A DNA stretch of 64,000 nucleotides from Marinilongibacter aquaticus (GTDB lineage: Bacteria; Bacteroidota; Bacteroidia; Cytophagales; Spirosomataceae): NCBI RefSeq assembly GCF_020149935.1, contig NZ_CP083757.1, positions 3,745,501 through 3,809,500 of the forward strand. Direction: 5' to 3'. A program made the translations under genes and the position numbers. The notes beneath the pieces are model-generated. The model searched no databases. It was not told where the DNA came from and worked only from the letters and a program-made list of their open reading frames with translations. Positions within the stretch are counted from its first letter, which is position 1, and each line of letters opens with the position of its first letter. Below are positions 2,474 through 26,045 of the stretch, piece by piece.

Positions 2474-4132
2474 TTATTGAAAAAAAACACGTAATACGTG
2501 TGCATTGATGCCGTTTTCTTCAAAATATCCAAGCCAAAACAACTGCCTGTTCGACAGGTTGTCGGTCGGCGATTTTACCTCCACAAAAGCGTAGTTTTCT
2601 TCATCCCAAACGAATAAATCAGGAAAGCCTCGGGAGTTTTCGGCAATGTCTTTCGACATGTGTACCAAAATACCTTTTAGCTTGTCGAGGCCTATGAACT
2701 GAGTCGCTATGCGTATGCCGTCCCAAAGTTCATCGAGCCAAAGCACAAAAGGATTGGCTATACCCTCATTTGCCACATATTTTTCTCGCATAAAGACCAG
2801 CAATTCATCGGTGTCTTCAAAGGTATCGAGGTGAGCATGAATGGACTCTTTTCTTTTTTCATAAAAATCGGGTAAATGCAAATCGGAGGGGCGTCTTTGG
2901 AAAGGGTGGTGGAAAGCCACCAAGCTCGGATCGAAAATGATGTCCCAAAATATCAGCCCGAATAGTCCACGCCACAAATAGTTTTCCGAGAAAATGGCCA
3001 TTTGCCCCTGTGAAATGAAATGAGCGATTGTGCCCAATTCAACTTGGCCTCTAAATTCTGAAGGGATGGTGATCTGCTCGGATTGATGAAGTTTTTCAGT
3101 CGTCAGCTTTTTTCTTCTTGGCGATTTTTGAATGATACGCTCAGAGAAATCTTTGGCAAAAAATACTTCGTCCGCATTGTGGCTGTGGGCCATAAGGTCT
3201 TGGCAAAGAGCCAAAGCTTCGGCATTTTTTCCGAGTTTGTTCAAGCTGCGAATATGACGTTCACTCGCCGCAGGGAGTGTGCAGATATTGTAAATTTCTA
3301 CCGCAAGCTCTAGGTTTTTTGTGCGTTCCAGATGTCGGCCAATTTTATATTTGAGCCGCTCCAAGGAAGGTTTGGCCACTTCGCTCAAGGTGTGAAGCGA
3401 GCTGTTCAAAGTCATGAACCAATCGAAGATGTCCTCGGGTTCTTCGGTCTTTTTCAATTGTTCGAAAAGTTCGGCCTGATCGCTGAGCATCCATTTGTCT
3501 TCTGCGTCTTTTCGTGTTTCGAAACGGGCTACGAGTTTGTCGTCGTCGTGCTGAAAATATTGCACAAAGCCGAGGTCACGCACCACAAACTCGGTCATGT
3601 CCATGTAACGGTTGCCGAAGAACAGGAATTTTAAAAAGGCTGTTTCAAACTCGAAATTGACTTTTACCCATTCTTGCTGACTCGCGATTTGCGATACTAT
3701 GAATTCGGGCTTTTCGGTCAGTCGAATGTGTTCAATCAACTCATCCTTTTGAATGGATTTGGCCGCTTTCTCCGAAGGTATTTTTAATAGCTCGGCTTTC
3801 GTATTAACCAAGAGCAAGTCGTGTACGAAGGGAGCGTGTGCGGGATTGAGCCACTCTACAAATTCTTTTTGACTGAGCTCTTCCAGTAAATCTTTAATTT
3901 CGCTCAACTCCTCGTATTCCAGCTTTTTTGTCCGGAAAAAAAGCCCTTTGCGGTTGGTGAAGCGAATGAACAGGCACTGTGCATCTTCGCTCAGTCCATA
4001 GAATTTCCTCAAGAAACGCCATTCATTTTCTTGCAAGATGTGCTTGTATTTGTCTTTTACAAAATCAAGCAAGTAGTTGAAATAATCGAGGTAGTATTTT
4101 GGAGGAAGAACTAAGTTTTGATTTTCGGACAT
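2474..4132 (-). CDS. FAN1-like VRR-NUC domain nuclease
   Basis: This 552-residue protein ends in a VRR-NUC (PD-(D/E)xK) nuclease domain. GFPDLFVWD near residue 503 and FVEVKSPTD near 518 supply the metal-binding Asp and the ExK pair, followed by the Q-containing helix NRQLFWLGYF. The long helical N-terminal region resembles the SAP-less, TPR-like body of FAN1-family structure-specific nucleases, which cut 5' flaps and process interstrand crosslinks. Activity on DNA is inferred from the family. It lies 39 bases from the TonB receptor gene on the same strand, with no DNA-repair neighbour. There is no signal peptide, so it is cytoplasmic. Confidence 0.8.
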   Translation of the reverse strand: MSENQNLVLPPKYYLDYFNYLLDFVKDKYKHILQENEWRFLRKFYGLSEDAQCLFIRFTNRKGLFFRTKKLEYEELSEIKDLLEELSQKEFVEWLNPAHAPFVHDLLLVNTKAELLKIPSEKAAKSIQKDELIEHIRLTEKPEFIVSQIASQQEWVKVNFEFETAFLKFLFFGNRYMDMTEFVVRDLGFVQYFQHDDDKLVARFETRKDAEDKWMLSDQAELFEQLKKTEEPEDIFDWFMTLNSSLHTLSEVAKPSLERLKYKIGRHLERTKNLELAVEIYNICTLPAASERHIRSLNKLGKNAEALALCQDLMAHSHNADEVFFAKDFSERIIQKSPRRKKLTTEKLHQSEQITIPSEFRGQVELGTIAHFISQGQMAIFSENYLWRGLFGLIFWDIIFDPSLVAFHHPFQRRPSDLHLPDFYEKRKESIHAHLDTFEDTDELLVFMREKYVANEGIANPFVLWLDELWDGIRIATQFIGLDKLKGILVHMSKDIAENSRGFPDLFVWDEENYAFVEVKSPTDNLSNRQLFWLGYFEENGINAHVLRVFFQ

Positions 4133-4171
4133 ACCTGCAATTTAAGGAAAATAGGTCATTCCTTTCTGCAT

Positions 4172-6544
4172 TTAATGTCTGCGAATGCCATTGAATTCCA
4201 TGGCTTCTCCTTTTCCAAAACCGTAACTGAAGCCCAAGGTTACGAATCGGCCTCTTTTGCGGCGATTGTAAAGGTAAAAGTGCTCTTGGTCGGCAGTTGA
4301 TCTATAAATACGCGAGGCGAAAAGATCACGCACGCCAATGTTGACAACGCCTTTGCCTTTTAATATTTTTTTTCGCAAACCCATATCCATAAAACTCATG
4401 GCAGAGTTGCTGCCCTGTATGGTTTGGTAGCCCGAACGGTGATTTCCGGTAAGTTCAATATCGATATCGGCCGGCAGTTTGAATTTGGCGTTTAGTCTCG
4501 AGGTCCAATTGTTGGACGAGAAGTCGAACGAGCGGGCTTCCAATTGCCCTTCTCTTTTGAACATGTTGACGTTTATATCGCCCGCGAGACTGATCCATTT
4601 GGCTAATTCATACTTTCCGTTTACTTCGATGCCTGTTGTTTTGTTTGTACCGATATTGAGAGGTTTAGAATAGCTTACTCCGTTTTCGAATGTAGAGATA
4701 CGGTCGATGACATTGGAGGTGTAGCGGTAGTACACTCCGGCGTTCAAAGAAAGTTTGTCGAGGTCGTAAATGCTAGTGATTTCATAAGAATCGGTAAATT
4801 CTGGGCGTAAGTTCGGATTGCCCGTACGCACATTGAAATTGTTTCGAATGTTAAAAAAGGGGTTCAAATCCCAAAGGCGTGGACGGTAAATGCGTTTAGA
4901 ATAACCAGCTTGTACCGATACCGTTTTTGTGAATTTGTAGGAGGTGTGCAAGCTTGGGAAGAAATTGGTGTATTTCTGCAAATTACTGGTTCCGGTATTG
5001 GCCAAAAGGGTATGCAGACGGGTGTGTTCCAGTCGGCCGCCGAGTTTCAGTCCCCAAGCTTTTCGCTCGTAGGCGGCCGTAGTGTACAAAGCAAAAACTT
5101 TCTGATTGTAATCGAAAAGGTTTGTTAGGTCTGGGTTTTCGATCCATTCTCCGTTTTCAAGATTGCTTACAGCGTAGTCGTTGCTTACGTCGTTGATCAC
5201 ATATTGCGAGCCCGCTTCGATTTTCACTTCTTCCGTAAAGGGGTTGGTGTAATCCAGTTTCAATACATTTTCGGCCTCTTTGAAATTGGTTCGGGTTTGT
5301 TGATCGACCAAATCGATTTCGCCCAAAGTGGCCATATTCGTAAAATCGGAATTTTGATCTTTGCCAAAAAATGAACCGACTGCACTGGCCAGAAGCGAAT
5401 GCTCTTTGTTGTTGGCAAACTGCTTTTTGTATTGAAAATCATATTGCCATTTGGGGTTGCCAGCTGATGTGCTTTCATCTCTGAACCACTTGGATAAAAC
5501 TTCACCGTCGGCATTCGTTCTTACGTAATTGGTTTGAGACGGTTGTTTTTCGGCTTCAAAAGCAAAGTTGCCTGAGAGTGTCAGCACATTGAGAGCATTG
5601 ATGTGGTAATCTGTGCCCAAAATAAAATTGTAAAAGGTTTCATTGCGATATTCTGTACCTGAGCTGCTCACCGTTTGGCCGCTGCTTTTGTCCAAATTGA
5701 TGTTCTCATTGTAGCTTGGGAGCGAACGGTAACCGGCTCCCAATTGGCTGAATAGGTTGAACTTCTCTGTTCTGCGGTTTAAACTCATGCCGAAACTGTG
5801 GTTGTCTGGCATACCGGTGTTGAGCGACAAAGAGCCATTGAGGCCTTTACGCTCTTCTTTTTTGAGAATAATATTGATGATTCCGCTGGTTCCTTCGGCT
5901 TCGTATTTGGCCGAAGGGTTTGTGATGACTTCCACTTTTTCAATCATTTCGGCCGTAATCGTGCCCAAAGCATTGCTTTGCTCAGAGGCTAAAACGGAAG
6001 GTTTGCCATTGATCAAAATCTGCACGCCAGAGCTTCCTCGTAGGCTTATTTGGCCTTCAATATTTACCGTTACGGAAGGTACGTGGTTCAAAACCTCAAG
6101 GGCACTTGCCCCGGTAGTGGAGAGGTCTTTGCCGACATTGAATACCCTTTTGTCAAGACTGAACTCCGTTTGTGATTTTTCGGCTCGCACCACCACATCG
6201 TCGAGTACTCTTGTGTTTTCGTTTAAAAGAATATCGCCCAAAAGGAAGGTGTTGCCCTTTTTTTGAAATTGTTTTATTTGTCTGTTTTCGAAACCAATGA
6301 AACTGATATCCACATAAAAATTCGAGTGTGCTGATTCAATTGAAAAGCGACCATTCTCATCGGCTATTCCTCCAGCAAATGGCTTTTGATCAGTATTGTC
6401 GACAAGTTGAATTGTGGCGAAGGGGATGGGAGATTTGTCATCAGATTTTAGAATTCGCCCCTCCACTTCGAATGCTGCACTTTGTGCAAGAGTAGAGAAA
6501 GTAAACAGTGTGAAAATAAATATATGTGTAATAAAAATTCGCAT
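4172..6544 (-). CDS. TonB-dependent outer-membrane receptor with carboxypeptidase-like N-terminal domain
   Basis: A 790-residue outer-membrane protein. A signal peptide (about 1-20) precedes a CarboxypepD_reg-like beta-sandwich (about 25-110: EGRILKSDDKSPIPFATIQL). A plug domain follows (about 115-230, with VTVNIEGQISLRGSSGVQILINGKP), then a large beta-barrel ending in aromatic FSYGFGKGEAM. The barrel belongs to the 'outer membrane protein beta-barrel' subfamily rather than SusC. No SusD partner is adjacent, so it is more likely an importer of iron chelates, peptides or another small ligand than a glycan receptor. The substrate is unknown. The gene is isolated between a nuclease and a metallo-hydrolase. 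Confidence 0.87.
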   Translation of the reverse strand: MRIFITHIFIFTLFTFSTLAQSAAFEVEGRILKSDDKSPIPFATIQLVDNTDQKPFAGGIADENGRFSIESAHSNFYVDISFIGFENRQIKQFQKKGNTFLLGDILLNENTRVLDDVVVRAEKSQTEFSLDKRVFNVGKDLSTTGASALEVLNHVPSVTVNIEGQISLRGSSGVQILINGKPSVLASEQSNALGTITAEMIEKVEVITNPSAKYEAEGTSGIINIILKKEERKGLNGSLSLNTGMPDNHSFGMSLNRRTEKFNLFSQLGAGYRSLPSYNENINLDKSSGQTVSSSGTEYRNETFYNFILGTDYHINALNVLTLSGNFAFEAEKQPSQTNYVRTNADGEVLSKWFRDESTSAGNPKWQYDFQYKKQFANNKEHSLLASAVGSFFGKDQNSDFTNMATLGEIDLVDQQTRTNFKEAENVLKLDYTNPFTEEVKIEAGSQYVINDVSNDYAVSNLENGEWIENPDLTNLFDYNQKVFALYTTAAYERKAWGLKLGGRLEHTRLHTLLANTGTSNLQKYTNFFPSLHTSYKFTKTVSVQAGYSKRIYRPRLWDLNPFFNIRNNFNVRTGNPNLRPEFTDSYEITSIYDLDKLSLNAGVYYRYTSNVIDRISTFENGVSYSKPLNIGTNKTTGIEVNGKYELAKWISLAGDINVNMFKREGQLEARSFDFSSNNWTSRLNAKFKLPADIDIELTGNHRSGYQTIQGSNSAMSFMDMGLRKKILKGKGVVNIGVRDLFASRIYRSTADQEHFYLYNRRKRGRFVTLGFSYGFGKGEAMEFNGIRRH

Positions 6545-6664
6545 AAAAAGCTGGCTGTTCTTTTGATTAGTCGATTTACTAAGTTAGTGTAAATCAATGC
6601 ACTATGTCAAGTCGAATCGGCCAAACACGATAGGGTGTCGCTGAAAAAATCGGAGAATTTCGCT

Positions 6665-7429
6665 CTAAAGTGTAAAGCTGAGGCCGTCGAAAGCCAGCTC
6701 CATGCCCTCGGGCAATTCTGCGTTCACCTCTTTATGAAAGCCCATTTTATGGGAAATATGGGTGAAGAAGGTTTTTTTTGCCCTTACTTCTTGAGCAAGT
6801 GCGATAGCCTGATCGAGCCGGAAATGGGAGACATGATCGGTTTTTTGCAAGGCATTCAACACAAGAATGTCACAATCTTTTATTTTTTCTTTCTCTTCTT
6901 CAGAAATGGCATTGGCGTCGGTGATGTACACAAAGCCGCCAATTCTATACCCGAATACGGGCAGTTTGTGATGCATAACTTGAATAGGTTGAATTTGCAG
7001 ATTGTCAATTGCAAACGCTTTGTTTTCAATGGCGTGGGTGCGGATCAGTGGCACGCCCGGGTAACTTGATTCGAGAAAAGCGTAATGAAATTCGCGTTTG
7101 AGTTGGTCGAGCACATTCTGCCGGGCGTAAATATCCATGTATTTCGAGCCCTGCAGGTAATTGAAAGGACGCACGTCGTCTAATCCCGCAGTGTGATCTT
7201 TGTGTTCGTGGGTGAAGAGCAGGGCATCCAAGCGTTTTGTTTGGGTACGTAACAGCTGTTGCCGAAAATCAGGTCCGCTATCGATGACCAAATTGACTTC
7301 ATCGGTTTCGATCAGTACAGAAGACCTGAGCCTGTTGTCTTTGGGGTCTTTTGAAAGGCAAACGGGGCACTCACAAGTTAATACGGGAACGCCAGATGAT
7401 GTTCCCGTACCTAACATTGTGATTTTCAT
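6665..7429 (-). CDS. PhnP-like MBL-fold phosphodiesterase
   Basis: A 254-residue metallo-beta-lactamase-fold hydrolase. The metal motif HxHxDH is present as HEHKDH (residues 74-79), preceded by LGTGTSSGVP. A CxCxxC cluster (C19, C21, C24), with a C-terminal THISHKMGFH segment, matches the structural zinc site known from PhnP. PhnP hydrolyses 5-phosphoribosyl 1,2-cyclic phosphate in C-P lyase pathways, but no phn genes are present here. The true substrate may be another cyclic nucleotide or phosphodiester. It lies 42 bases after the response regulator gene and may be co-transcribed with it. Cytoplasmic. Confidence 0.82.
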   Translation of the reverse strand: MKITMLGTGTSSGVPVLTCECPVCLSKDPKDNRLRSSVLIETDEVNLVIDSGPDFRQQLLRTQTKRLDALLFTHEHKDHTAGLDDVRPFNYLQGSKYMDIYARQNVLDQLKREFHYAFLESSYPGVPLIRTHAIENKAFAIDNLQIQPIQVMHHKLPVFGYRIGGFVYITDANAISEEEKEKIKDCDILVLNALQKTDHVSHFRLDQAIALAQEVRAKKTFFTHISHKMGFHKEVNAELPEGMELAFDGLSFTL

Positions 7430-7471
7430 AAGACTAAAATTTCATTGTGGTTTTGCAGTGTACGGTGTGGC

Positions 7472-7846
7472 TCAACCCTCGGTCAAGTCTTTCACCACTT
7501 TTACCAACATATCGAAATTGAGAGGTTTCATAAGCACTTCATTGAAACCAGTATCTTTGTATTCTTCTACCGTGTAGTTTCGGGCGTTTCCAGTGATGGC
7601 CACAACGGGCAAGTTTGCAGTGGCTTCGTTTTCCCGAATAGCCTGAACGCACTCGATTCCGTCCATTACAGGCATGTTGATGTCCAATAGTACGATGTCA
7701 AAAGGTTCTTTTTCAAGCAATTGCAGTACTTGTTCGCCATTTTTTACAGCCGTGATTTTAAAGTTTTGGAACTCTAATATTTTTTTGGCTAGGTTTTGAA
7801 TGACAGAAGAATCTTCTGCGATCAGTACATTTTTCGGTGATGACAT
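7472..7846 (-). CDS. Single-domain response regulator (CheY-like)
   Basis: A 124-residue stand-alone receiver domain. The acidic pair E11-D12, the phospho-acceptor D55 in LLDINMP, the conserved Thr in VVAITGN and the Lys in LMKPL are all present, so phosphorylation should be possible. There is no output domain. It would act by protein contact, as a phosphorelay intermediate or a motility/signalling adaptor. No histidine kinase lies next to it. The PhnP-like gene follows on the same strand. Confidence 0.9.
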   Translation of the reverse strand: MSSPKNVLIAEDSSVIQNLAKKILEFQNFKITAVKNGEQVLQLLEKEPFDIVLLDINMPVMDGIECVQAIRENEATANLPVVAITGNARNYTVEEYKDTGFNEVLMKPLNFDMLVKVVKDLTEG

Positions 7847-8018
7847 GGGTTTTATCTTAATTCAGTTGTTCGTAAATATAAAAAGAGAAGTGGTTTACTT
7901 TGGTTCGCACAAGTTATTTTTTTCGAAAAATACCATTTCTTCCGCTAAAGAAGCTATTTTTCCGCTTATTGTCAATTTATCTATCTTTTTTATGAATAAG
8001 GGGGCAATTTGTGCAAAA

Positions 8019-8567
8019 TCATGCGTTTTTCTTTTCATAATTTTCCTCCCATTCGAGTTGTTTTACTTCCATAATCCTGAACTCTTCCCCAAAATGGGCG
8101 GTCACTACGAGGTCGAGTGCTTCTAGCCTGGTTTCGGGGTCTACTTCCACTAAATTCTCTGCATAAATATGGACAATGCCGTTTGCAAATTCCATTTCCC
8201 AATTGCTCGGATCAATGATCACGGGATCGAGAAGAGCATCGTACATTTTGAAAGGTGAAACACGTGGGTTTTCTGGTTTGGCGTATCTGAATTCCCAATG
8301 GGCCAGATCGGGGGCCGCTTTCATGATTTTTTTTGTCAGCTGCAGGCGATCGTAATCACGGTTTGGCGAAATGATCAGGCAATAGGTTTTGTTTTGACTT
8401 TCGATGATTTCCCAAGTGAAATGGCCGAAACCCAAGACTTTGCGGTCGATATGTTCTTTCAGTTCCAAGAGCTTTGCTTCAGATCCTTTCTCGATGACCT
8501 TGCGAATCAAAGCTTCGTTTTTGGCCCACCAGAGCCAAAACCTTCTGATGTCCCTTTCTGGAATCAT
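8019..8567 (-). CDS. Uncharacterised protein coupled to mutS2
   Basis: A 182-residue cytoplasmic protein I do not recognise. It is charged, has no signal peptide or membrane segment, and is rich in tryptophan near its start (RRFWLWWAKNEALI). The body looks alpha/beta, with strands such as KTYCLIISPN and FRIMEVKQLEW. Its ATG follows the mutS2 stop after one base, so the two are very likely translated from one message. That suggests, without proving, a role with MutS2 or simple co-expression. The C-terminus is acidic then basic. Confidence 0.7.
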   Translation of the reverse strand: MIPERDIRRFWLWWAKNEALIRKVIEKGSEAKLLELKEHIDRKVLGFGHFTWEIIESQNKTYCLIISPNRDYDRLQLTKKIMKAAPDLAHWEFRYAKPENPRVSPFKMYDALLDPVIIDPSNWEMEFANGIVHIYAENLVEVDPETRLEALDLVVTAHFGEEFRIMEVKQLEWEENYEKKNA

Positions 8568-8568
8568 T

Positions 8569-10974
8569 TTATTTCAGTTTTACGATCGTTACACCGTGCC
8601 CACCGCGGTCGGCATGTTCATCCTCAAATCCATTTACTTGCTTGTAAGATTTGAGGTGCGTGCGAACCAAGTTTCGCAAAATTCCGTCTCCTTTTCCGTG
8701 TACAATGCGTAGCTCCGGGTAGCCCAGTACTATGGCATCGTCCATCAATGAATCCAAAGCATGGATGGCCTCTTCGGCCCTTTTGCCACGGATGTCGAGA
8801 TTGAAGCTAAAGTTAGCCATTTTTTCATTGAGGTCGACTCCACCAAGCTTGACCGATGGGCTTTCTTTCGTGGCTTCTTTGAAGGCCTTTTTGCTCACTT
8901 TTTCCAAACGGTTCAGCTTTATTTTGGTTTTGAGCTGACCGACGGCCATTTCCACATCTTTTCCTTTAATGGAAATCACTTCACCAATGGTTTCTTGCCC
9001 CATCACGCGTACAAAAGAACCCAGTTTGATCTCGCCTTTTTCTTTCTCCCATTTGTTTTTTTCTGGAGTTTTGGTTTCGCTTTTTAGCTTCTCTTCTCCA
9101 AAGCTTTCCAACTGTTGGCGTATCTCTTGTGTACGTTCTTTGTCGGCCTGCGTTTCCTTGATCTCACGAATCACTTGCTCGATTTTCCGATTGCTTTCTT
9201 TCAAAAGCTCTCGGGCTTCTTTTTTTGCTTCACTTATTATCCGCGTTTTTTCGCCGTCAAGAAAAGTTTTAAGACCTGTGTACTGATCGAGCTTGGTTTG
9301 CAGAAGTTTATTCTGTTCGAGCATTTGCAAGTTTTTGTCGGCGTAAACCTTTTTCTCGATTTCGAGCTCTTTCAGCATTTTTTCGAAGTCGACTTGCTGT
9401 GTGCCCAGTTTCTTTTGGGCTCTTTTCGTAATGTATGCCGGTAGGCCAATTTTTCCGGCCACTTCTATCGCGAATGAGCTGCCGGGCTTACCCATTTCCA
9501 AAGCGTATAGCGGTTCCAGATTTTCCGCATCAAATTTCATGGCTCCATTTTTCAAGCCTCTATTTTTGTCAGCAAAAATTTTCAGGTTGGTATAATGTGT
9601 GTTGATCACACCTTTTGCCCTCGATTTTACGAAGTGTTCCAAAAGCGATTCGGCAATGGCCCCACCCAGATTGGGTTCGGTTCCGGTACCAAATTCATCG
9701 ATCAAAAACAAGCTGCCTTTGTTGAGGTTGCTCAAAAAGAAATTCATGTTTGTCAGGTGCGAACTGTAAGTACTGAGGTCATTCTCGATACTTTGCTCAT
9801 CGCCGATATCAATAAAGAGATCCTTGAAAATTCCGAGTTTCGAGTCGGGCGAAATGGGTACGAGAAAACCAGATTGAGCCATGTACTGACAAAGGCCAAT
9901 GGTTTTCAGCATCACCGATTTCCCGCCTGCATTGGGACCCGAAACAATAAGGATGCGGTCTTCGGCATTGAGCTCCACAGAAAGCGGAACCGTAGGCTTT
10001 TTGAGCTTTTGGTGTGTAAGAAACAAAATGGGATGACGGGCATGCTTCCATTCGATCACCCGTTCATCAACCAACAATGGGGCAGAGGCGTCCAATTCGA
10101 TGCCCAGAAGTGCTTTCGCCCGAATAAAATCCACCAATCCTAAAAGAAAATAGGCCTTTTTCAAGTTTGGGATTTCTGGACGAATCTGCGAGGTCAAGGC
10201 CTTGAGTATGCGAATGACTTCTCGCCGCTCTTTGATTTCGAGATCACGAATTTCATTGTTCGATTCCAAGACTTCCGCGGGTTCGACAAAGGCCATTTGT
10301 CCTGTGCTCGATTCATCGTGTACAAAGCCTTTCAATTTTCTTTTGTGCTCGGCCAGCAAAGGAATAACCAAACGGCCATTTCGAACAGAAATCGACATGT
10401 CGTCTCCAATCCAGCCCGAATTTTTGACCGTTTTGAAAATACGCTCCAAGGCTCGCCGCACAGATTGTTGCTCGGCAGCAATGCGTTTGCGAAGGGAGTA
10501 CAGTTCCTCCGAGGCGTTGTCTCGCACCATGCCGCGTTCATCAATTACCCCGTCAATTTGGTCAATGATGTCGCCAAGATCTAGACTTTTGCTTACAGCT
10601 TGGGCCACCATTTCGCCCAGAAGCGGATAACGCTCGGTTTTGTCGCTGAAGAAATCTTGAATTTGCAGTATCGTCCGAAGGGAAAGCTTTAGATCAGTGA
10701 AAAGTTCTTCTGATAAATAAGTGCCCTCTTTTTGTATACTTTCCAACGAATGGCTTAAGTCGATATAATTTTGTTCGGGGAAAGAGCTGTGCAATTGCAG
10801 CACCAATTTAAACTCGGCGGTTTGCCCAATGAGCTTTTTCACCAGTTCGAAATTCTCCGAAAATCGTATTTTGTCCACAAAAGCACGGCCCAATGGGCTT
10901 ATGCACCGTTCTTTTACGTAATCACGGATGGTATCAAAACCAATTTTGCTTTCAATATTTTTTGGGTATAGCAT
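8569..10974 (-). CDS. mutS2: MutS2 family ATPase with Smr domain
   Basis: An 801-residue MutS2. It has the MutS-type core and clamp, an ABC-type ATPase with Walker A GPNAGGKS (about residues 343-350), a signature/Walker B region ending in LFLIDEFGTGTEP, and a coiled coil (about 510-640). The C-terminal Smr domain (about 720-800) carries LDIRGKRAEEA and the catalytic-type IVHGKGDGILR motif. It lacks the mismatch-recognition domain of MutS. MutS2 proteins restrain recombination and, in some bacteria, rescue collided ribosomes through Smr cleavage. The ATG at 10974 is preferred to an upstream TTG at 10980. The next gene starts one base after its stop. Confidence 0.95.
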   Translation of the reverse strand: MLYPKNIESKIGFDTIRDYVKERCISPLGRAFVDKIRFSENFELVKKLIGQTAEFKLVLQLHSSFPEQNYIDLSHSLESIQKEGTYLSEELFTDLKLSLRTILQIQDFFSDKTERYPLLGEMVAQAVSKSLDLGDIIDQIDGVIDERGMVRDNASEELYSLRKRIAAEQQSVRRALERIFKTVKNSGWIGDDMSISVRNGRLVIPLLAEHKRKLKGFVHDESSTGQMAFVEPAEVLESNNEIRDLEIKERREVIRILKALTSQIRPEIPNLKKAYFLLGLVDFIRAKALLGIELDASAPLLVDERVIEWKHARHPILFLTHQKLKKPTVPLSVELNAEDRILIVSGPNAGGKSVMLKTIGLCQYMAQSGFLVPISPDSKLGIFKDLFIDIGDEQSIENDLSTYSSHLTNMNFFLSNLNKGSLFLIDEFGTGTEPNLGGAIAESLLEHFVKSRAKGVINTHYTNLKIFADKNRGLKNGAMKFDAENLEPLYALEMGKPGSSFAIEVAGKIGLPAYITKRAQKKLGTQQVDFEKMLKELEIEKKVYADKNLQMLEQNKLLQTKLDQYTGLKTFLDGEKTRIISEAKKEARELLKESNRKIEQVIREIKETQADKERTQEIRQQLESFGEEKLKSETKTPEKNKWEKEKGEIKLGSFVRVMGQETIGEVISIKGKDVEMAVGQLKTKIKLNRLEKVSKKAFKEATKESPSVKLGGVDLNEKMANFSFNLDIRGKRAEEAIHALDSLMDDAIVLGYPELRIVHGKGDGILRNLVRTHLKSYKQVNGFEDEHADRGGHGVTIVKLK

Positions 10975-16696: not shown

Positions 16697-19348
16697 ATGC
16701 CTGCAAAACAGCTATTGAGCTTATGCTCCTTCGTTCTACTTTCACTTTCTTCGTTTGCACAGCATGCAGAGCAGAAGCCTTTTACGCGGTGGTGGTGGAT
16801 GGGCTCTGCGGTAAATGAACAAGGGATAAAATACAATCTCGAAGCTTTTCACAAGGCTGGAATTGGCGGTGTGGAAATTACTCCAATTTATGGGGTGCGT
16901 GGCGAAGAGTCGAATTACATTCCTTTCTTGTCGGAGAAATACATGCACATGCTGGATTATACTGTAAAAGTGGCGGATAGCTTAGGCATGAAAGTGGATA
17001 TGGTGCAGGGTACGGGTTGGCCATTTGGTGGGGCACAAGTGGAGGCCAAACATGCGGCAACAAAATTAATGGTCGATTCTCTTTTTTTGAAGAAAGGAGA
17101 AACCGTGGATCGTGATTTCGAGGTAAACCAAGAAGGTGTGGCACTGCTTCATGTGCTGGCTTTTGGAGCCAATGCGTATTATAAAGATTTAAGTGATAAA
17201 GTGGAGGAGGGGCGTTTGCGTTTTCAGGCAGATCGGGATTTGACGCTCTATGCGGTGTATGCCGGAAAAACCGCTCAAAAAGTGAAGCGGGCTGCCCCAG
17301 GAGGCGAGGGATTCACTGTCGACCACTATTCGCAATCGGCATTGGAAGATTATCTGGAGCCTTACAATGAAAAACTTAAGTCGGGGATTCGGGCCGTGTT
17401 CAACGACAGTTACGAAGTGTATGGCACCGACTTTACACCTCATTTTTTCGAAGATTTTGAGGCACTTAGGGGATACGATTTAAAACCCCACCTGCCTTTG
17501 CTTATTCAAAAGGAGAATTCGGAAAAGGCCAATCGCATTCGCGGAGATTACAGAGAAACCATTTCGGATTTGCTGAAAACACGTTTCGATAGGCCATGGA
17601 CAAAATGGGCCCATGAGCATGGCTATAGAACCAAGCTGCAGGCCCACGGTTCACCCGGAAACTTGCTCGACCTTTATGCTACGGCTGATATTCCAGAATG
17701 TGAGACTTTTGGTTCGATGCCTTTTGATATTCCGGGTTTTCGACGTGAAGCCGATGATATTCGTGAAGGGGATGCTGATCCCGTAATGCTGAAATTTTCG
17801 AGTTCGGCTGGGCATGTGATGGGCAAACCCTTGATTTCTTCGGAAACATTCACATGGCTTCGCGATCACTTCAAAACGGCTCTTTCTCAATGTAAACCCG
17901 AACTCGAAGAGTTGTTGCTGAATGGTGTAAACCATGTGTTTTTTCACGGCTCAACTTATTCGCCGCCTGAGGCCGAATGGCCCGGATGGAAATTCTATGC
18001 GTCGGTGAATTTCAGTCCGCAAATGACCATTTGGAAAGATGCTCCTGCACTTTTCAGATACATAAAGAATTGCCAGACACTGCTGCAAATTGGACAGCCA
18101 GATAATGAAATCGGACTTTACTGGCCAATTCACGATGTCTGGAATGGTTATCATGAAGGTCGACTGCTTTATCAATTTCAGATTCATTCTTTGAAGGAGT
18201 GGCTTTTGGATACGCCTTTCTATGCCTTGGCGAATGAATTGATGGATTCTGGATATTCTGTAGATTTTCTTTCGGATGAGTTTATCGCTACGGCACGTGT
18301 GGAAAGTGGGAAAATCGTATTCAATGGGGGAGCGTACAAAGCACTTGTTGTGCCCAAAGCAAAATACATGCCTCTGGCTACTTTGGACAAATTGAAAAGT
18401 TTGAAAGCCGAAGGAGCGACGATAATTTTCGAGGATTTACCCGAAAGTGTCCCTGGGTTCCGAGATTTTGAATCGCGGGCTTTGAAATTGAATGATCGTT
18501 TAGAAAGCCTCGTTCCTGTGCCGAACGTAATGCAAGCCTTGAAAAGCGGAGGGGTGGAGCGTGAAGAATTTGGGAAGCTCGGGCTGAAATTTATCCGAAG
18601 AAAACACGAAGAAGGCTATATTTATTTTGTGGTGAATCATGGTTCTAAAGATTTTGAGGGCTTTTTGAATTTGCAAAGCAAAGGAAACAAACCCGTTCTT
18701 TTTGATCCAGACACAGAGATGCTTGGCATGGCGAGCCAAAACGCCCAAGGTGCGGTTCGCATTCAATTGAAAGCTGGGAAATCCATCTTTATTCGTACAG
18801 ATCAAAAGGCCGTTAAACAAGAATGGTCTTATTACAAAACACTTCCACAAGCTGTGGTTTTGCATGGGCCCTATACCTTGAAATTTCTCGAAGGCGGACC
18901 CGTTTTGCCGCCGGCTCATGATAAGCTGGAAAAGCTTGGGTCGTGGACCGAGCTTGGACAAGAGGAAGCGGATTTTAGCGGTACGGCGATGTACTCGTTT
19001 GAATTTGTGAAACCGAAAACTAAAGCGGATGCATGGGCTTTGGTATTGCCTGATGTTCGAGAAAGTGCACGAATATGGTTGAATGGAAAATATTTGGGCA
19101 CTTTGTGGGCCAATCCGTTCACGATCAATCTTACAGATTTGAAGGCGGAGAATACGTTAAAAATTGAAGTGACGAATTTGACAGCCAACCGCTTGCGGGC
19201 GAAAGAAATGCGGGGCGAAGAGTGGAAGATTTTTCACGAAATCAATATGGTGAATAAGGATTACAAGCCCTTCGATGCTAAAAAATGGAAGCCGATGCCT
19301 TCGGGAATTGTCGGCGAAATCAAATTGGTGCCATTGGAAAAGGATTGA
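16697..19348 (+). CDS. Secreted GH106 alpha-L-rhamnosidase
   Basis: An 883-residue protein matching GH106 alpha-L-rhamnosidases, which release terminal L-rhamnose with inversion. A signal peptide (about 1-22, ending SFAQ) precedes the family opening TRWWWMGSAVNEQGI and the barrel segments GGVEITPIYGV, VDMVQGTGWPFGG and HGSPGNLLDLY. A C-terminal beta-sandwich (about 760-850) carries RIWLNGKYLGTLWANPF, a galactose-binding-like fold. Length is at the short end for the family. Together with rhaM and the GntR regulator it forms a small rhamnoside-use locus. There is no SusCD pair, so released sugar must enter by another route. Confidence 0.9.
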   Translation: MPAKQLLSLCSFVLLSLSSFAQHAEQKPFTRWWWMGSAVNEQGIKYNLEAFHKAGIGGVEITPIYGVRGEESNYIPFLSEKYMHMLDYTVKVADSLGMKVDMVQGTGWPFGGAQVEAKHAATKLMVDSLFLKKGETVDRDFEVNQEGVALLHVLAFGANAYYKDLSDKVEEGRLRFQADRDLTLYAVYAGKTAQKVKRAAPGGEGFTVDHYSQSALEDYLEPYNEKLKSGIRAVFNDSYEVYGTDFTPHFFEDFEALRGYDLKPHLPLLIQKENSEKANRIRGDYRETISDLLKTRFDRPWTKWAHEHGYRTKLQAHGSPGNLLDLYATADIPECETFGSMPFDIPGFRREADDIREGDADPVMLKFSSSAGHVMGKPLISSETFTWLRDHFKTALSQCKPELEELLLNGVNHVFFHGSTYSPPEAEWPGWKFYASVNFSPQMTIWKDAPALFRYIKNCQTLLQIGQPDNEIGLYWPIHDVWNGYHEGRLLYQFQIHSLKEWLLDTPFYALANELMDSGYSVDFLSDEFIATARVESGKIVFNGGAYKALVVPKAKYMPLATLDKLKSLKAEGATIIFEDLPESVPGFRDFESRALKLNDRLESLVPVPNVMQALKSGGVEREEFGKLGLKFIRRKHEEGYIYFVVNHGSKDFEGFLNLQSKGNKPVLFDPDTEMLGMASQNAQGAVRIQLKAGKSIFIRTDQKAVKQEWSYYKTLPQAVVLHGPYTLKFLEGGPVLPPAHDKLEKLGSWTELGQEEADFSGTAMYSFEFVKPKTKADAWALVLPDVRESARIWLNGKYLGTLWANPFTINLTDLKAENTLKIEVTNLTANRLRAKEMRGEEWKIFHEINMVNKDYKPFDAKKWKPMPSGIVGEIKLVPLEKD

Positions 19349-19354
19349 ATTTTG

Positions 19355-19386
19355 AACAGGTCGGGCTTTTGGTCCCGACCTGTTTT
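19355..19386 (+). terminator. Intrinsic terminator of the GH106 gene
   Basis: AACAGGTCGGG and its exact complement form an 11-bp stem with an 8-base loop (19355-19384), followed by four T residues. It lies between the GH106 stop and the convergent unknown operon. Confidence 0.85.
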
Positions 19387-19387
19387 A

Positions 19388-20119
19388 TTAGCCGTTCAGC
19401 TTTTTCGAAAATTTCTTGATGGTCGCTCCTTTTTTCCTCTTGCTCAGCTGAACTTTCACACGTGCACGAAAATCGGCCTTCAGTTGATTCGTAAAGCTAT
19501 GCTTGCCCTCGAGTTTGGCTTCTTTGTCCAACTTTATTTCGATGTCCGAAAGCCCTTTACCGAATTTGAAAACCAGACCTTGATTGGGCAAAATCCGAAT
19601 GGAATTGGTTTTCCCGAGAATATCTTCGGTTATCAGTTGCGTGGCTGCCGTTTGCGAAAGTTTGGCCTCTTGCAGTTCGGGCGTTTTCACTTCGATCTCG
19701 AAATTCTTTTTCATGCTTTTCGAACTGACCACAAATTTCCCAGGTCGCAAAAGGTTTACTCCGAAGAGGTCTTCCTTACCGGGTTTGGCCGAATCAAATT
19801 CAAGGGTATCATCCTTTTTGATCAACACACGGTTTTCTTTAAATTCTCGAGAATTGTAAAGAAGAATATGTCCATTTTCGGCATTCAGTGTAAATACAGG
19901 CAATGCTTCGCGTTGGCCGAAAGCGAACATGTCCAAATTTATTTGGTTTTCTTCCACATCTTTCGATGCCCGAATGCTGCCTTTTCGGAAGGTTTTTCCA
20001 TTTTTCTGTACTTCAATTGTAAAGATACCTTCGCCCGATATTTTATGGACGAGAAAAGAAAACGGACCCAAAATGGCGGGTGAAAAGTTTGCTTGGTTTA
20101 ATATTTTGGCGTTTAGCAT
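19388..20119 (-). CDS. Unknown protein, third gene of orphan operon
   Basis: A 243-residue protein I do not recognise. It has no signal peptide or membrane helix. Predicted strands alternate through most of it (GIFTIEVQKNGKTFRKG, GHILLYNSREF, KFVVSSKSMKKNFEIEV, FKFGKGLSDIEIKL), suggesting one or more beta-sandwich domains. It ends in a very basic tail, VQLSKRKKGATIKKFSKKL, which could bind nucleic acid or acidic lipid. It lies 19 bases after the preceding gene of the same operon. The complementary strand also has a 243-codon open frame, but that frame has the composition of a shadow. A function cannot be assigned. Confidence 0.68.
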   Translation of the reverse strand: MLNAKILNQANFSPAILGPFSFLVHKISGEGIFTIEVQKNGKTFRKGSIRASKDVEENQINLDMFAFGQREALPVFTLNAENGHILLYNSREFKENRVLIKKDDTLEFDSAKPGKEDLFGVNLLRPGKFVVSSKSMKKNFEIEVKTPELQEAKLSQTAATQLITEDILGKTNSIRILPNQGLVFKFGKGLSDIEIKLDKEAKLEGKHSFTNQLKADFRARVKVQLSKRKKGATIKKFSKKLNG

Positions 20120-20138
20120 GATTTTGTCTGTTTAGTTT

Positions 20139-21041
20139 TTAAATCGATACGGTGAGTGCCATTTCGGTCTCATCGATGTTTACATTCACATTGCTTACTG
20201 TCAGTAAAACAGGGTTGGAACCCGGAATGATCGGGTACGGATTGGGTATGCCGATCAAAGGGAATTTGTCGCTTAGGTAGTTTCCAACTTCTACGGCGAT
20301 GAAGTCGAAAAGGCCAAAACTCACACCCAATAGATCGGAAAGCCATTCGTCGATGTCATCTGCGATATCGAGAATGTCGCGAACAATGTCTACCATGCCA
20401 TGCAAAAGCCAGCCAAGAATATCTTTGGCCCAGCCGGGCAATCCTCCAAAAATATTGTTGATGAAATGATCGATCATGTTGTCGAGAATATTGCCCAAAG
20501 TGTCGGCAATGTCAATGATATCGATATCCACCCAGTCGGCCTTCAAATGCAGCCGCCATTCGTCCATTTTATCCTGTGCATAGGCTTGAAAGTCGTTTAA
20601 AGTAGCATTTAGAGGATTATCGAAATATTTAATTTCTGGGCGAAAGCTCCCCGATATTTCCGATTGAATAATCCCGTCGAGATTGATAGGCAGGCTGATA
20701 TCTGGATTGGCACTGAAAAGGCAAATTCGCGGAGCCCTTACTAAACAGCCGCTCCAAGGCCAAGGTTTGGGGATGATGCAAAAGCCACCGATGCACATTT
20801 GAGGAATATCGACCTCCAAGGTGACATTCAGCGGATCATAAATGATGTCCAGTTCCGAGATCTTGACATTGTTCGGGTCTTTTAAATCCAAATCGCCACC
20901 CGAAAGCCGAATACCGGCATTGTAAGAAGCTCTGAAATTTCCATTCGAAGAGCCAGATTTAACCACATGAAAGCTCTGCACTACATTTTGAAAGATTTCT
21001 TGTACGCTTTGTTCGTCTACTGCTATTGTTACATTGGGCAT
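20139..21041 (-). CDS. Unknown protein with amphipathic helical core, second gene of orphan operon
   Basis: A 300-residue protein I do not recognise. The first 140 residues look beta-rich, with LDIIYDPLNVTLEVDIP and a cysteine- and tryptophan-bearing loop containing CIGGFCIIPKPWPWSGC. Residues about 170-245 form a strongly amphipathic, Asp/Ile/Leu-rich helical stretch (DIDIIDIADTLGNILDNMI, WLLHGMVDIVRDILDIADD). A final beta segment follows (NPVLLTVSNVNVNIDE). Long amphipathic helices packed on curved sheets occur in lipid-binding TULIP-like folds; this is only a structural guess. No signal peptide is present. Its start lies 4 bases after the preceding stop. Confidence 0.7.
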   Translation of the reverse strand: MPNVTIAVDEQSVQEIFQNVVQSFHVVKSGSSNGNFRASYNAGIRLSGGDLDLKDPNNVKISELDIIYDPLNVTLEVDIPQMCIGGFCIIPKPWPWSGCLVRAPRICLFSANPDISLPINLDGIIQSEISGSFRPEIKYFDNPLNATLNDFQAYAQDKMDEWRLHLKADWVDIDIIDIADTLGNILDNMIDHFINNIFGGLPGWAKDILGWLLHGMVDIVRDILDIADDIDEWLSDLLGVSFGLFDFIAVEVGNYLSDKFPLIGIPNPYPIIPGSNPVLLTVSNVNVNIDETEMALTVSI

Positions 21042-21045
21042 GGCT

Positions 21046-21873
21046 TTAAGGATTTAGATTAATAAACAAGGTCAGTTTGTCGCTGGATACGTTGGGGTTG
21101 TACGGCACTGTGGCCGAAATTGCGGCAGGCATTACGGTAAAAAACTCGCCTACACTGAACACAAGGTCTTCGAGTTTGATCATTATTTTCGGGAATACCA
21201 CTTTGTTGAGCAGCTTGAAAAGGTAGCATTCGATAATGTTTTCAAGGCCAATGGGGCTAATGTCTTTGATCTCGATTCCAAGAAGTTGCAGGCGGATGGA
21301 TGTGCTGTCGCGAACGACGGCCATTTTGGCGAAAAGTTCGAGGCAAAAGCAATTCAAGTGCGGCAGTGTGACGGGTAAATAAGGCACCTTCTCCAAATCT
21401 TTTAATAGGCCCGTGTCTTTTTTTACCTCTTTTGCTTTTCCGTCTTTGAGCTGCTTTCCTTTGTCTTTTCCCGGGATGGGCACATTTGTTCGGTTGCCGC
21501 AGGAAACACCACAGCAGGCTTTGCCTTTTAGGGCGAACTCTTGCACGGCCAAGTTGCCGAGTTCTGAAGGCAGGCTGATGCTGTTTGAGGGTTGAAAGTC
21601 GACTTTGAGTTCGGTAATCTGAATACAGAAATCGAGTCCGGCCGAAGCGGGTAAACCGGGCAATGGAATCTTGGGCACTTCTGTGCAGGTCGGGAAATCC
21701 ATTGTACCTTTTACGGGGTGTTTACGAATGGGCGAGCAGAGGCTCTGGCCCATTAGAGCAGCGGAAGCGTAGTTGAAAACGTCGGGCATTTGCAGCATCA
21801 CCTCCTTGATGACTTTGTTGAAGGCAGCCTCTGGGAAGATACCCACAACATTTGCGTGTTGTGTAATTGGCAT
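21046..21873 (-). CDS. Unknown cysteine-containing protein, first gene of orphan operon
   Basis: A 275-residue protein I do not recognise. It opens with MPITQHANVVGIFPEAAFNK, has no signal peptide, and holds a helical N-terminal region followed by beta-rich segments (DFCIQITELKVDF, TSIRLQLLGIEIKDI). A cluster KACCGVSCGNR near 135-145 and further cysteines (CSPI, PTCTEV, CFCLEL) could bind a metal or form disulfides. A lysine/glycine-rich linker (GKDKGKQLKDGKAKEVKK) splits the protein in two. The overall strand pattern and final strand resemble the neighbouring 300-residue protein, suggesting distant relatedness or a shared fold. It is the first gene of the operon. Confidence 0.7.
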   Translation of the reverse strand: MPITQHANVVGIFPEAAFNKVIKEVMLQMPDVFNYASAALMGQSLCSPIRKHPVKGTMDFPTCTEVPKIPLPGLPASAGLDFCIQITELKVDFQPSNSISLPSELGNLAVQEFALKGKACCGVSCGNRTNVPIPGKDKGKQLKDGKAKEVKKDTGLLKDLEKVPYLPVTLPHLNCFCLELFAKMAVVRDSTSIRLQLLGIEIKDISPIGLENIIECYLFKLLNKVVFPKIMIKLEDLVFSVGEFFTVMPAAISATVPYNPNVSSDKLTLFINLNP

Positions 21874-22374: not shown

Positions 22375-23823
22375 ATGGACGCAAACGTTCAAGCAGAATT
22401 TGAATTGGGCATGATCGGTCTGGGTACTATGGGCCGTAACCTTTTGCTCAATATGGCTGATCATGGATACAAGGTGATTGGCTACGACAAAAACCCCAAA
22501 CAAGTAGAATTGTTAGACACAGAGCCGGGAGAAGTGCCTGGTGAGAAGGATCTTGCTCGCTTTATTGCGAAAATAAAGACACCTCGTGCTATTGTGCTTT
22601 TGGTGCCGGCCGGAAAAATTGTGGATGCGGTGATTGATGAACTGAGCCCCTTGTTGGACGAGGGCGACCTGATCATCGATGGCGGAAACTCCAAATGGAC
22701 CGATACCGAAGAGCGGGTGAAAAAGCTGGAAGAAAAGGGCTTGCACTTTTTTGGTATGGGAATTTCTGGTGGCGAAGAAGGAGCCCGAAAAGGACCGAGT
22801 ATGATGCCGGGCGGAAACAAAGCCGCATACGAGCACGTGAAAAATATTTTGGAGTCTATTGCAGCTAAAGCAAAAGGCGAACCTTGCGTGACGTATATCG
22901 GTCCGGGAGCTTCTGGGCATTATGTAAAAATGGTGCACAACGGTATTGAATACGCCATTATGCAACTTTTGGCCGAAGCGTATGAGCTGATGAAAGAAGG
23001 AGCGGGAATGAGCAACAAGGAAATACATGAGGTGCTCAAAAGCTGGAACGAAGGCCGACTGCAATCTTTCTTGATGGAAATCACGGCAGATATTTTCAAT
23101 TATTATGATCCGGAAAGCGGAGAATATCTATTGGATAAAATCTTGGATGTGGCCAAGTCGAAGGGCACAGGAAAATGGACTTCTCAATTTGCAATGGACA
23201 TAAATTTGCCGATTCCTTCGATCGACGTGGCGGTGAGCACACGCGATCTGTCGAAGTACAAAAGTCTTCGCGAAAAGTTGGAGTCGCGTTCGCGAGTCGC
23301 TTCAGACAAAAAGGGATTGAAAGCAGAATTGGACAATTTCCAAGAAGAACTCGAGAAGGCAGTCTATTTCTCTTTTGTTTCTGTCTATGCCCAAGGCATG
23401 TTTTTGTTAAAAACAGCGTCTGAAGCCTACGATTGGAATTTGAATTTGGCCGAGATTTCGAAAATTTGGAGAAGCGGCTGTATCATTCGTTCGGCTTTCC
23501 TCGAAGATATGTACCAAGCTTTTTCGGCTCAGCCGCCTATCGAACACTTGTTTGGCGATGATGAAATAGGAGCGAAATTACAGGAAGACTTGCCGGCTAC
23601 ACGAAAGGTGATCAGCACAGCGATGCAGTTTGGTTTCTCTTTACCGGTTTTTGCTTCGGCTTTGAATTACTATCAATCGATGCACGATGGCCGAATGCCG
23701 ACGAACCTTATTCAGGCTCAACGCGACTATTTTGGAGCACATACTTATGAATTGAAAGGCGAAGAAGGAACTTACCACAGCAAATGGACGGAAGCCTTTG
23801 CTCCGAGCATCCGAATTTCGTAA
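22375..23823 (+). CDS. gnd: 6-phosphogluconate dehydrogenase (decarboxylating)
   Basis: A 482-residue enzyme that oxidises 6-phosphogluconate to ribulose 5-phosphate and CO2 in the cytoplasm. The N-terminal Rossmann motif GLGTMGRNL, the MGISGGEEGARKGPSMMPGG substrate loop (split in the chain near 125-145) and the catalytic Lys/Glu segment YVKMVHNGIEYAIMQ are all present. Length is normal for the homodimeric type. It is the first gene of gnd-zwf-pgl, with 13 bases to zwf, so the whole oxidative branch is co-expressed. Confidence 0.96.
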   Translation: MDANVQAEFELGMIGLGTMGRNLLLNMADHGYKVIGYDKNPKQVELLDTEPGEVPGEKDLARFIAKIKTPRAIVLLVPAGKIVDAVIDELSPLLDEGDLIIDGGNSKWTDTEERVKKLEEKGLHFFGMGISGGEEGARKGPSMMPGGNKAAYEHVKNILESIAAKAKGEPCVTYIGPGASGHYVKMVHNGIEYAIMQLLAEAYELMKEGAGMSNKEIHEVLKSWNEGRLQSFLMEITADIFNYYDPESGEYLLDKILDVAKSKGTGKWTSQFAMDINLPIPSIDVAVSTRDLSKYKSLREKLESRSRVASDKKGLKAELDNFQEELEKAVYFSFVSVYAQGMFLLKTASEAYDWNLNLAEISKIWRSGCIIRSAFLEDMYQAFSAQPPIEHLFGDDEIGAKLQEDLPATRKVISTAMQFGFSLPVFASALNYYQSMHDGRMPTNLIQAQRDYFGAHTYELKGEEGTYHSKWTEAFAPSIRIS

Positions 23824-23836
23824 ACAGGAGAAGAAA

Positions 23837-25321
23837 ATGAGGAAAAACAACACCAGGCCTACTGTATTTGTAGTTTTTGGGGCCACAGGCGATTTGAACT
23901 GGAGAAAGATCAATCCCGCCTTGTACAATTTGTATCTGGAAAAATACATGCCTAAAGAGTTTGCCATTTTGGGCTCTGGGCGAACAAAATACACTTCCGA
24001 CGAACTGGCCGAGAAATTGAAAGACGGTATAGATCGCTTTTCGAGAAAGGGCAAAGCCGAGGCCAGCGAGTGGGATGCGTTTTCGCAGAATTTATATTAT
24101 CAGCCAGCCGATGTGACGAATCCAGAGGATTTCAAAGCTCTGGCGGCCACTTTGAAAGAGATCACCAAAGAATGGGAACAAGAGCCCACTTTGATTTTCT
24201 ATTTGGCGGTTTCGGCTGATTTCTTTGCCGTGATTGCCGAGAATGTAGGCAAATACATCAGCCCCGAGTTTGGTCAGAAAGTACGCATTGTGCTCGAAAA
24301 ACCTTTCGGGAAAGATTTGGAAACGGCGAATGAACTCAATGCTTTGCTTTCTCAGAATTACGACGAAGATCAGATTTATCGTATAGACCATTATTTGGGC
24401 AAAGAAACGGTACAGAATATTTTGGCTTTCCGTTTTGCGAATTCCATTCTCGAGCCCATTTGGAACCGAAATTATATCGAGCACGTGCAAATTTCGGTGA
24501 GCGAGGATATTGGAATCGGGAATCGCGGCGGTTATTACGATACGTCGGGAGCCCTGCGAGATATGGTGCAAAACCACATATTCCAATTGCTGTGTTTGGT
24601 GGCAATGGAAAGTCCGGTAAGTTTCCATGCCGATGAAATTCGGAACAGGAAAGTGGACGTCTTGAAATCTGTAAAAGCCATCAATGTAGATGAAGAAACC
24701 GTGCGGGCTCAGTACCTTGGCGGAGAAATAAAGGGTGAAGAGATCCTTTCGTATATCGATGAAAAAGGGGTAGACGACAGTTCGAGCACAGAAACTTATG
24801 TGGCCCTGAAGCTATTCATCAATAGCTGGCGTTGGCACGGCGTACCTTTTTACATTCGGACAGGAAAACGTTTGAAAAAGAAAGACTCGACGATTACCAT
24901 TCAGTTTCGCGACGTGCCGCATCAGGTTTTCCCGAAAGAAGCCAATAAATTATGGCAGAAGAATAAACTGGTGATCAACATCCAACCCGAAATGGGCATT
25001 ATTTTGAAAATGCAAGCGAAACGCCCAGGTTTGGATATGATGCTTCAGGATGTGAACATGGAGTTCAATTATGAAGATGCCTTTACCGAGCAAACTCCCG
25101 AAGCTTACGAGACATTACTTTTGGATGTGCTTACATCCGATCAAACGCTCTTCATGCGAGCCGATCAGGTAGAAGAGGCGTGGAAATTGTTGATGCCTGT
25201 TTTGGACAATTGGGCCGAAAAGAAATCGGAAGGTATGCAAACGTATGCATCGGGTTCGTGGGGACCAGAGAAGGCCGACGAATTGTTGAAAAAGGATGGA
25301 TTCGAATGGTTCAATGATTGA
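23837..25321 (+). CDS. zwf: Glucose-6-phosphate 1-dehydrogenase
   Basis: A 494-residue G6PDH, the entry enzyme of the oxidative pentose phosphate pathway. FVVFGATGDLNWRKINPALY is the nucleotide-binding start, YRIDHYLGKETVQNIL contains the catalytic His-Lys region, and YIRTGKRLKKK is a conserved substrate-side segment. The ATG at 23837 has AGGAG close upstream; an earlier in-frame ATG inside gnd adds 13 unlikely residues. The FGATGDL motif with Ala and Thr is typical. It is sandwiched between gnd and pgl in one operon. Confidence 0.95.
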   Translation: MRKNNTRPTVFVVFGATGDLNWRKINPALYNLYLEKYMPKEFAILGSGRTKYTSDELAEKLKDGIDRFSRKGKAEASEWDAFSQNLYYQPADVTNPEDFKALAATLKEITKEWEQEPTLIFYLAVSADFFAVIAENVGKYISPEFGQKVRIVLEKPFGKDLETANELNALLSQNYDEDQIYRIDHYLGKETVQNILAFRFANSILEPIWNRNYIEHVQISVSEDIGIGNRGGYYDTSGALRDMVQNHIFQLLCLVAMESPVSFHADEIRNRKVDVLKSVKAINVDEETVRAQYLGGEIKGEEILSYIDEKGVDDSSSTETYVALKLFINSWRWHGVPFYIRTGKRLKKKDSTITIQFRDVPHQVFPKEANKLWQKNKLVINIQPEMGIILKMQAKRPGLDMMLQDVNMEFNYEDAFTEQTPEAYETLLLDVLTSDQTLFMRADQVEEAWKLLMPVLDNWAEKKSEGMQTYASGSWGPEKADELLKKDGFEWFND

Positions 25322-26045
25322 AAAAATGGAGAAGCACATTAAAAAAGAACAGAGCGAATTGCTCGTAGATTATGCCAATTTTTTAATAGAAACAGGAAAT
25401 AAAAGTATTGCAGAGAACGGACGCTTCAATTTGGTGCTTTCCGGCGGCTCTTCGCCAAAGGCTTTGTTTACGCTTTTGACCCGTGATGAATACCGCGAAC
25501 AACTTGATTGGCAAAAAGTTTATTTCTTTTTTGGGGATGAACGTTATGTGCCCGCCGAGGATGCCGATTACAATGGCTTAATGGCCCAAAACTACCTTTT
25601 TGAGCCCTTGGGTATTGCCGCTCCGCAAATATTTTTGGTGAATACGGCATTGGCACCCGAGGCCTGTGCAGCGGATTATGAAAAACGCATCGGCGAGCAT
25701 TTTGGAGAGGCTCAATGGCGATTCGACTTTATGATGTTGGGTATGGGTGGCGACGCCCATACGGCTTCTTTGTTTCCAGGAACCTCCATTTTACCTGTTC
25801 AAGAAGTGGGTGTGCGAGCGGTTTTGATAAAGCCTGAGGTTTGGCGTATATCCATGACCGCAGCCCTGATCAACCAATCGAAAGAAGTGGCTTTTCTCAC
25901 TTTTGGAGAATCCAAAGCCGAGGCTCTACACCACGTTTGGGAAGGCGAGTACAATCCAAATATGTACCCTTCGCAGTTGATTAAACCGCTAGATGGCCAT
26001 TTGCATTGGTTTGTGGATGAGGCAGCTGCGGCTTCTATGCCTTAA
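25314..26045 (+). CDS. pgl: 6-phosphogluconolactonase
   Basis: A protein of about 243 residues of the DevB/SOL family that hydrolyses 6-phosphogluconolactone. LVLSGGSSPKALFTLL, VYFFFGDERYVPAEDADYN and FDFMMLGMGGDAHTASLFPG are family hallmarks. The ATG at 25314 overlaps the zwf end, implying translational coupling; an ATG at 25326 is also possible. With gnd and zwf it completes the three-step oxidative branch. Its stop codon shares bases with the stop of convergent rpiA within CTTAAG. Confidence 0.94.
   Translation: MIEKMEKHIKKEQSELLVDYANFLIETGNKSIAENGRFNLVLSGGSSPKALFTLLTRDEYREQLDWQKVYFFFGDERYVPAEDADYNGLMAQNYLFEPLGIAAPQIFLVNTALAPEACAADYEKRIGEHFGEAQWRFDFMMLGMGGDAHTASLFPGTSILPVQEVGVRAVLIKPEVWRISMTAALINQSKEVAFLTFGESKAEALHHVWEGEYNPNMYPSQLIKPLDGHLHWFVDEAAAASMP

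Follow-up and report, generated by a model that had tools for sequence, protein, structure and literature searches.

What do three adjacent genes encode for which no family could be named? We encountered this question in a 64,000-nucleotide stretch of the Marinilongibacter aquaticus chromosome (hereafter the window), where genes A, B and C follow one another on the reverse strand. We judge it about an even call that the trio is a single horizontally spread operon for a protein complex that binds lipids or another hydrophobic ligand. No description of such a trio was found in the literature (open-licence papers).

A conserved three-gene unit and its settings

A preliminary description of the window had listed three reverse-strand genes of 275, 300 and 243 residues, separated by 4 and 19 bases, and had recognised neither a family nor a signal peptide in any of them. 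The open reading frames confirm the lengths, the strand and the spacing (4 bases between A and B, 19 between B and C), and searches of all three proteins against Pfam, NCBIfam and PHROGs returned nothing above noise, with no protein of the trio matching an unrelated known family in the profile searches. A Kyte-Doolittle scan found no hydrophobic N-terminus or signal peptide in A, B or C (the highest 15-residue means within the first 35 residues are 0.96, 0.64 and 1.31, respectively).

Table 1. Coordinates of the trio and of its sequence features in the window, and of the homologous genes in an Acidobacteriota contig (L003) and a phage-like contig (L004).
Locus	Feature	Position	Strand	Description
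Window	Gene A	21046-21873	minus	275 aa, ATG ORF; predicted single-domain TULIP-like protein
Window	Gene B	20139-21041	minus	300 aa, ATG ORF; predicted TULIP-fold protein
Window	Gene C	19388-20119	minus	243 aa, ATG ORF; basic beta-rich protein
Window	B residues 83-107	20721-20795	minus	loop CIGGFC...GC...RxPxxC with four invariant Cys
Window	B residues 199-243	20313-20447	minus	conserved acidic amphipathic helical segment LPGW...DIVRDILDIADDIDEWLSDLLGVS, predicted to lie beyond the minimal TULIP core
Window	Inverted repeat	19356-19383	minus	ACAGGTCGGG-ACCAAAAG-CCCGACCTGT, directly 3' of C, between C and the GH106 gene; read from sequence
L003	Gene A	4970-5833		37% identical to window A
L003	Gene B	5830-6747		46% identical to window B
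L003	Gene C	6750-7460		about 24-27% identical to window C
L004	Gene A	2592-3443		35% identical to window A
L004	Gene B	3445-4395		41% identical to window B
L004	Gene C	4392-5099		about 24-27% identical to window C

In the window the trio is separated on its 5' side by a 0.5-kb gap from a divergent 6-phosphogluconate dehydrogenase (6PGD) gene (22375) and faces a convergent GH106 gene (16697-19348) on its 3' side; its neighbours include GH106, GH31 and 6PGD genes, and no transposase or phage genes were seen near it. The inverted repeat that follows C is a candidate for the end of the transcription unit, and was not listed by a terminator scan requiring a T-run, which this repeat does not have. 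We rejected recent acquisition as judged by base composition, of which there was no sign (GC of 42-48% for the trio and 44% for the window), and the trio would appear from these values to have settled in. In four relatives the genes that flank the trio in the window are themselves not syntenic, and a comparison of the flanks accordingly showed no empty site.

When B was compared with 84,980 species genomes a single match was obtained, in the Acidobacteriota MAG contig JAUWTE010000054.1 (L003), and a scan of IMG/VR found one contig carrying B (L004) and no copy beyond it. The order and strand of A-B-C are identical in all three loci, with a 4-base overlap between A and B and a 2-base gap between B and C in L003, and a 1-base gap followed by a 4-base overlap in L004. 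Conserved tight spacing, at first a guess, is now demonstrated by these gaps and overlaps of no more than 4 bases. A-B-C is a real unit and one operon, conserved across phyla: its three loci are a chromosome in Bacteroidota, a contig from Acidobacteriota and a contig that is phage-like. A, B and C are genuine genes, because chance reading frames cannot retain protein sequence and gene order at two distant loci. The next gene in L003 bears out the binning of this contig, since it has relatives of up to 43% identity in further Acidobacteriota genomes. In L004 the trio stands in a phage-like context, opposite in strand and between lambda-type terminase and head-tail joining/portal genes, where by analogy a phage 'moron' would be placed.

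Further copies were sought widely. The trio was not found in a sample of about 1,080 genomes from Bacteroidota and Acidobacteriota; B was not found in 59 relatives, two of the same genus among these, nor A in 295 genomes of the class; a B profile had no match in 395 genomes of the phylum; and 396 Acidobacteriota genomes held no further copy besides L003's own. With B as the sole query, tblastn found it in none of 50,697 phage records and nowhere in the plasmid collection. Co-occurrence of the three genes elsewhere, which the preliminary description had proposed to look for, is seen in the remote loci L003 and L004 but not in the close relatives examined. We infer that the trio is rare and horizontally spread, since it is scattered over phyla and lies once among phage genes.

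The absence of a signal peptide, an ordinary chromosomal setting next to a pentose-phosphate operon in the window, and a GC content in keeping with that of the window would all suit an intracellular carrier of a hydrophobic metabolite or lipid, cytoplasmic and with no role in the envelope or outside the cell. We think such a carrier rather unlikely, as so patchy a spread together with a copy among phage genes would be unusual for a housekeeping protein of this kind, and the invariant cysteines of A and B fit an oxidising place (metal binding is also possible).

Predicted folds of A and B, and properties of C

A lipid-binding TULIP-like fold had been one early hypothesis for these proteins, and structure prediction sustains it for B and, tentatively, for A. 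The AlphaFold models were built on three-sequence alignments and have low scores (pLDDT 52 and pTM 0.46 for B; pLDDT 36 and pTM 0.32 for A), so the fold calls lean on the consistency of the matches and not on single scores. No Foldseek match of either protein reaches E 0.001, and TM-scores are low. Among the 50 best VIA-align rows of B we class 38 as TULIPs, and several of the non-TULIP rows are lone-helix alignments. YceB, bacterial like B, is the best structural match (Z 9.7, 143 aligned, 4.2 Å), with LBP (Z 8.0, 198 aligned, 5.5 Å), BPI (Z 7.6), CETP (Z 7.0) and P47 (Z 6.3) also matched, although a VIA Z below 8 can reflect a common arrangement; SPLUNC1, juvenile-hormone-binding protein, OrfX3, OrfX2, Takeout, Der f 7, Mdm12 and E-Syt2 are among the other rows. 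The first three Foldseek ranks for B in the PDB are CETP, LBP and YceB (E 0.006-0.12). Foldseek places TULIPs (BPIFA1, SPLUNC1) in the first nine rows for A, and VIA-align does so in the first 16, with Z of at most 6.2 from a model of pLDDT 36. Sequence searches of the PDB gave nothing credible, and matches of B in a viral fold library were inconsistent.

Low pLDDT and pTM for both proteins and the lack of a significant Foldseek E-value are what one would expect if the TULIP resemblance were an artefact of shallow models, with A and B folding otherwise. We hold this to be unlikely, because the two proteins retrieve the same rare superfamily atop their PDB lists, and B's list covers nearly every solved TULIP family. 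Homology between the A and B sequences was undetected in a comparison of three-sequence profiles, so the two fold results are fairly independent. From these models we assign a TULIP fold to B with moderate confidence and to A with low confidence.

The model of B comprises a strand (3-8), a helix (10-23), long strands, a further strand (162-177), helices (179-259) and two closing strands (284-289 and 294-299). Levine 2019 (PMC6791001) links an arrangement of one strand before the core and two after it to BPI-type, head-to-head dimers of bacterial TULIPs, and the strand 3-8 and the two final strands of B would correspond to this. The model of A has strands at E8-12 and E268-271 (pLDDT 36). The model of B, and tentatively that of A, also resembles the two-domain eukaryotic TULIPs BPI, LBP and CETP. 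B aligns with the N-terminal half of each of these and of P47, and A with the C-terminal halves of BPI, LBP and P47; this gives a weak hint that an A-B pair might be a two-domain TULIP in two chains.

The features that had been remarked on in the first two proteins are present and largely conserved. A has nine cysteines, of which six are invariant in the three homologues (C46, C120, C125, C175, C177 and C216), and B has four, all invariant, in a loop that lies between strands of the model at low pLDDT and is a possible disulphide or metal site. B is strongly acidic in all three loci (pI 4.05-4.14), with a net charge of -16 over residues 160-260, and its long amphipathic stretch, noted earlier, falls in this region: the segment 199-243 has helix moments of 0.44-0.56 and is helical in the model, and no other block of 20 residues in B is as well conserved as 221-240, in which 14 positions are invariant in the three homologues.

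Protein C has no cysteines and is basic (pI 9.4-9.8 in all three loci), and the C-terminal tail, described earlier as lysine-rich, is basic here and in both homologues, with the charge kept and the sequence not. The opposite charges of B and C, kept at each of the three loci, make contact between the two proteins, or binding of acidic lipids by C, plausible. The L003 homologue of C has a sub-threshold cupredoxin-like match (E 0.011). A role in anti-phage defence was considered and found no support, as a PADLOC scan gave one chance-level match only (C, E 0.017).

We propose that A and B would each form one TULIP domain, an antiparallel sheet round a long helix, and would each hold a hydrophobic molecule such as a lipid in a greasy, tubular groove. 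The two might pair head-to-head, joined by their terminal strands, and so make a tube of two domains like that of BPI, or a two-chain P47, over whose groove the conserved acidic amphipathic helices of B could serve as a lid or membrane-contact element. The basic tail of C would bind acidic B, acidic lipid head groups, or both. Lacking a Sec signal, the proteins would act in the cytoplasm, or leave it by cell lysis or by another route; any role at lysis is putative, as is the role of C.

Relation to known TULIP systems

P47/OrfX proteins are made without signal peptides, and the trio resembles them in this as well as in the predicted TULIP folds, the adjacent genes and the patchy distribution across phyla; P47 and OrfX3 are also among the structural matches of B. 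They differ in size, the P47/OrfX proteins having about 415-750 aa and two or more TULIP domains and A and B about 280-300 aa and one predicted domain each, and the trio further differs in having the basic partner C and, in the window, no toxin gene alongside. P47/OrfX TULIPs form partner complexes (OrfX1-OrfX3) and are found in many phyla, mostly near toxin genes (PMC7020563; PMC13030710). This background would favour an OrfX/P47-type cassette, in which TULIPs without signals exit by lysis and help a toxin, peptidase or enzyme to reach or cross a target membrane, with the neighbouring genes as cargo, and the location of the L004 copy among phage packaging genes, directly upstream of a gene with a sub-threshold bacterial Ig-like match, could be read in the same way. 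We consider such a cassette improbable. PF06597 had no match up to E 10 in A-C of the window, up to E 1 in A-C of L003, or anywhere in the window's genome; the window neighbours are GH106 and 6PGD genes; and the gene that follows the trio in L003 has relatives in Acidobacteriota without the trio, which argues against a conserved cargo.

Only a handful of bacterial TULIP families have been described, namely P47/OrfX, YceB, DUF4403, DUF2140 and DUF2993, and of these YceB (DUF1439) and DUF4403 proteins are exported and mostly lipid-anchored (PMC6791001), unlike the trio, which is without an export signal. A comparison of DUF4403 with the three-sequence profiles of the trio gave an hhalign probability of <1%, and by sequence the trio appears not to be a member of a named TULIP family (P47/OrfX, DUF4403 or YceB). 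We note that the window's genome carries an ordinary DUF4403 gene elsewhere (G000:C1:502816-504063).

In contrast to BPI, LBP and CETP, the trio would provide its two TULIP domains from separate bacterial genes, with no signal peptide and no sequence similarity to these proteins, and the extra acidic amphipathic helical segment of B is a further difference. The most far-reaching version of our proposal, a 'split BPI' in which a phage-carried, cross-phylum pair of single-domain TULIPs, made with a basic partner and without export signals, would be released at lysis to capture or disturb the membrane lipids of other cells, seems to us quite unlikely.

If the proposal of a ligand-binding complex is right, two families would be added to the bacterial TULIPs, in a three-gene arrangement that would be mobile, without export signals and untied to toxin genes. 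The trio would then offer a small, expressible system in which to study the function of OrfX/P47-like TULIPs away from toxin clusters, and would be evidence that phages can carry lipid-binding TULIPs. It may also be noted that the models of A and B resemble human antibacterial BPI, a kind of protein little known in bacteria.

The insertion of the L004 trio between terminase and portal genes suggests a phage-derived moron, a host-altering or superinfection-related complex of prophages that would survive as a remnant in the chromosome of the window. This reading is very doubtful. Neither in the window nor in L003 does the trio have phage genes around it, B occurs in a single IMG/VR contig and in no phage record, and PADLOC gave nothing above noise; the terminase of L004 is split into several frames, and the prophage there may itself be decayed.

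Genes beside the trio

A constant fourth gene was considered and rejected, as the genes that follow the trio in L003 (780 aa) and L004 (329 aa) are unlike each other by eye. The L003 gene (7549-9891) encodes tandem 'FDPGSAVGFNPQPEPPA' repeats and a C-x-C-W-V-R-G motif and has no family match; it was also rejected as a part of the trio, because relatives 36-43% identical stand in several Acidobacteriota genomes without the trio, and no relative was found in the window's genome. The L004 protein (5319-6308), directly after the trio, had nothing above cut-off in Pfam, and its C-terminal H...D...HxHxH pattern recalls zinc murein peptidases.

Two further observations were made in L004. The lambda gpA-type terminase large subunit (6805-8775) is split over three overlapping reading frames, with the ATPase and nuclease parts in separate ORFs, which may reflect decay of the prophage or errors in the assembly. 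By eye, the stretch just 5' of the trio (2080-2600) shows long inverted repeats, a sigma-70-like TTGACA site and strong Shine-Dalgarno sequences, and on that inspection would fit a self-contained cassette.

A separate P47 cluster was seen in another Bacteroidota genome (L067, 6915-9798), in which two adjacent PF06597 P47-type genes encode proteins of 427 and 528 aa; homologues of A, B and C are absent from it, and no toxin-like neighbour stood out when judged by size and first residues. Finally, the gnd-zwf-pgl operon that lies beyond the trio in the window (22375-26045) has its match in another genus of the family (59/57/47%). The two genomes of the same genus have no more of it than a gnd of 43-46% identity, with neither zwf nor pgl next to it in the stretches read, so congeners differ in this region.
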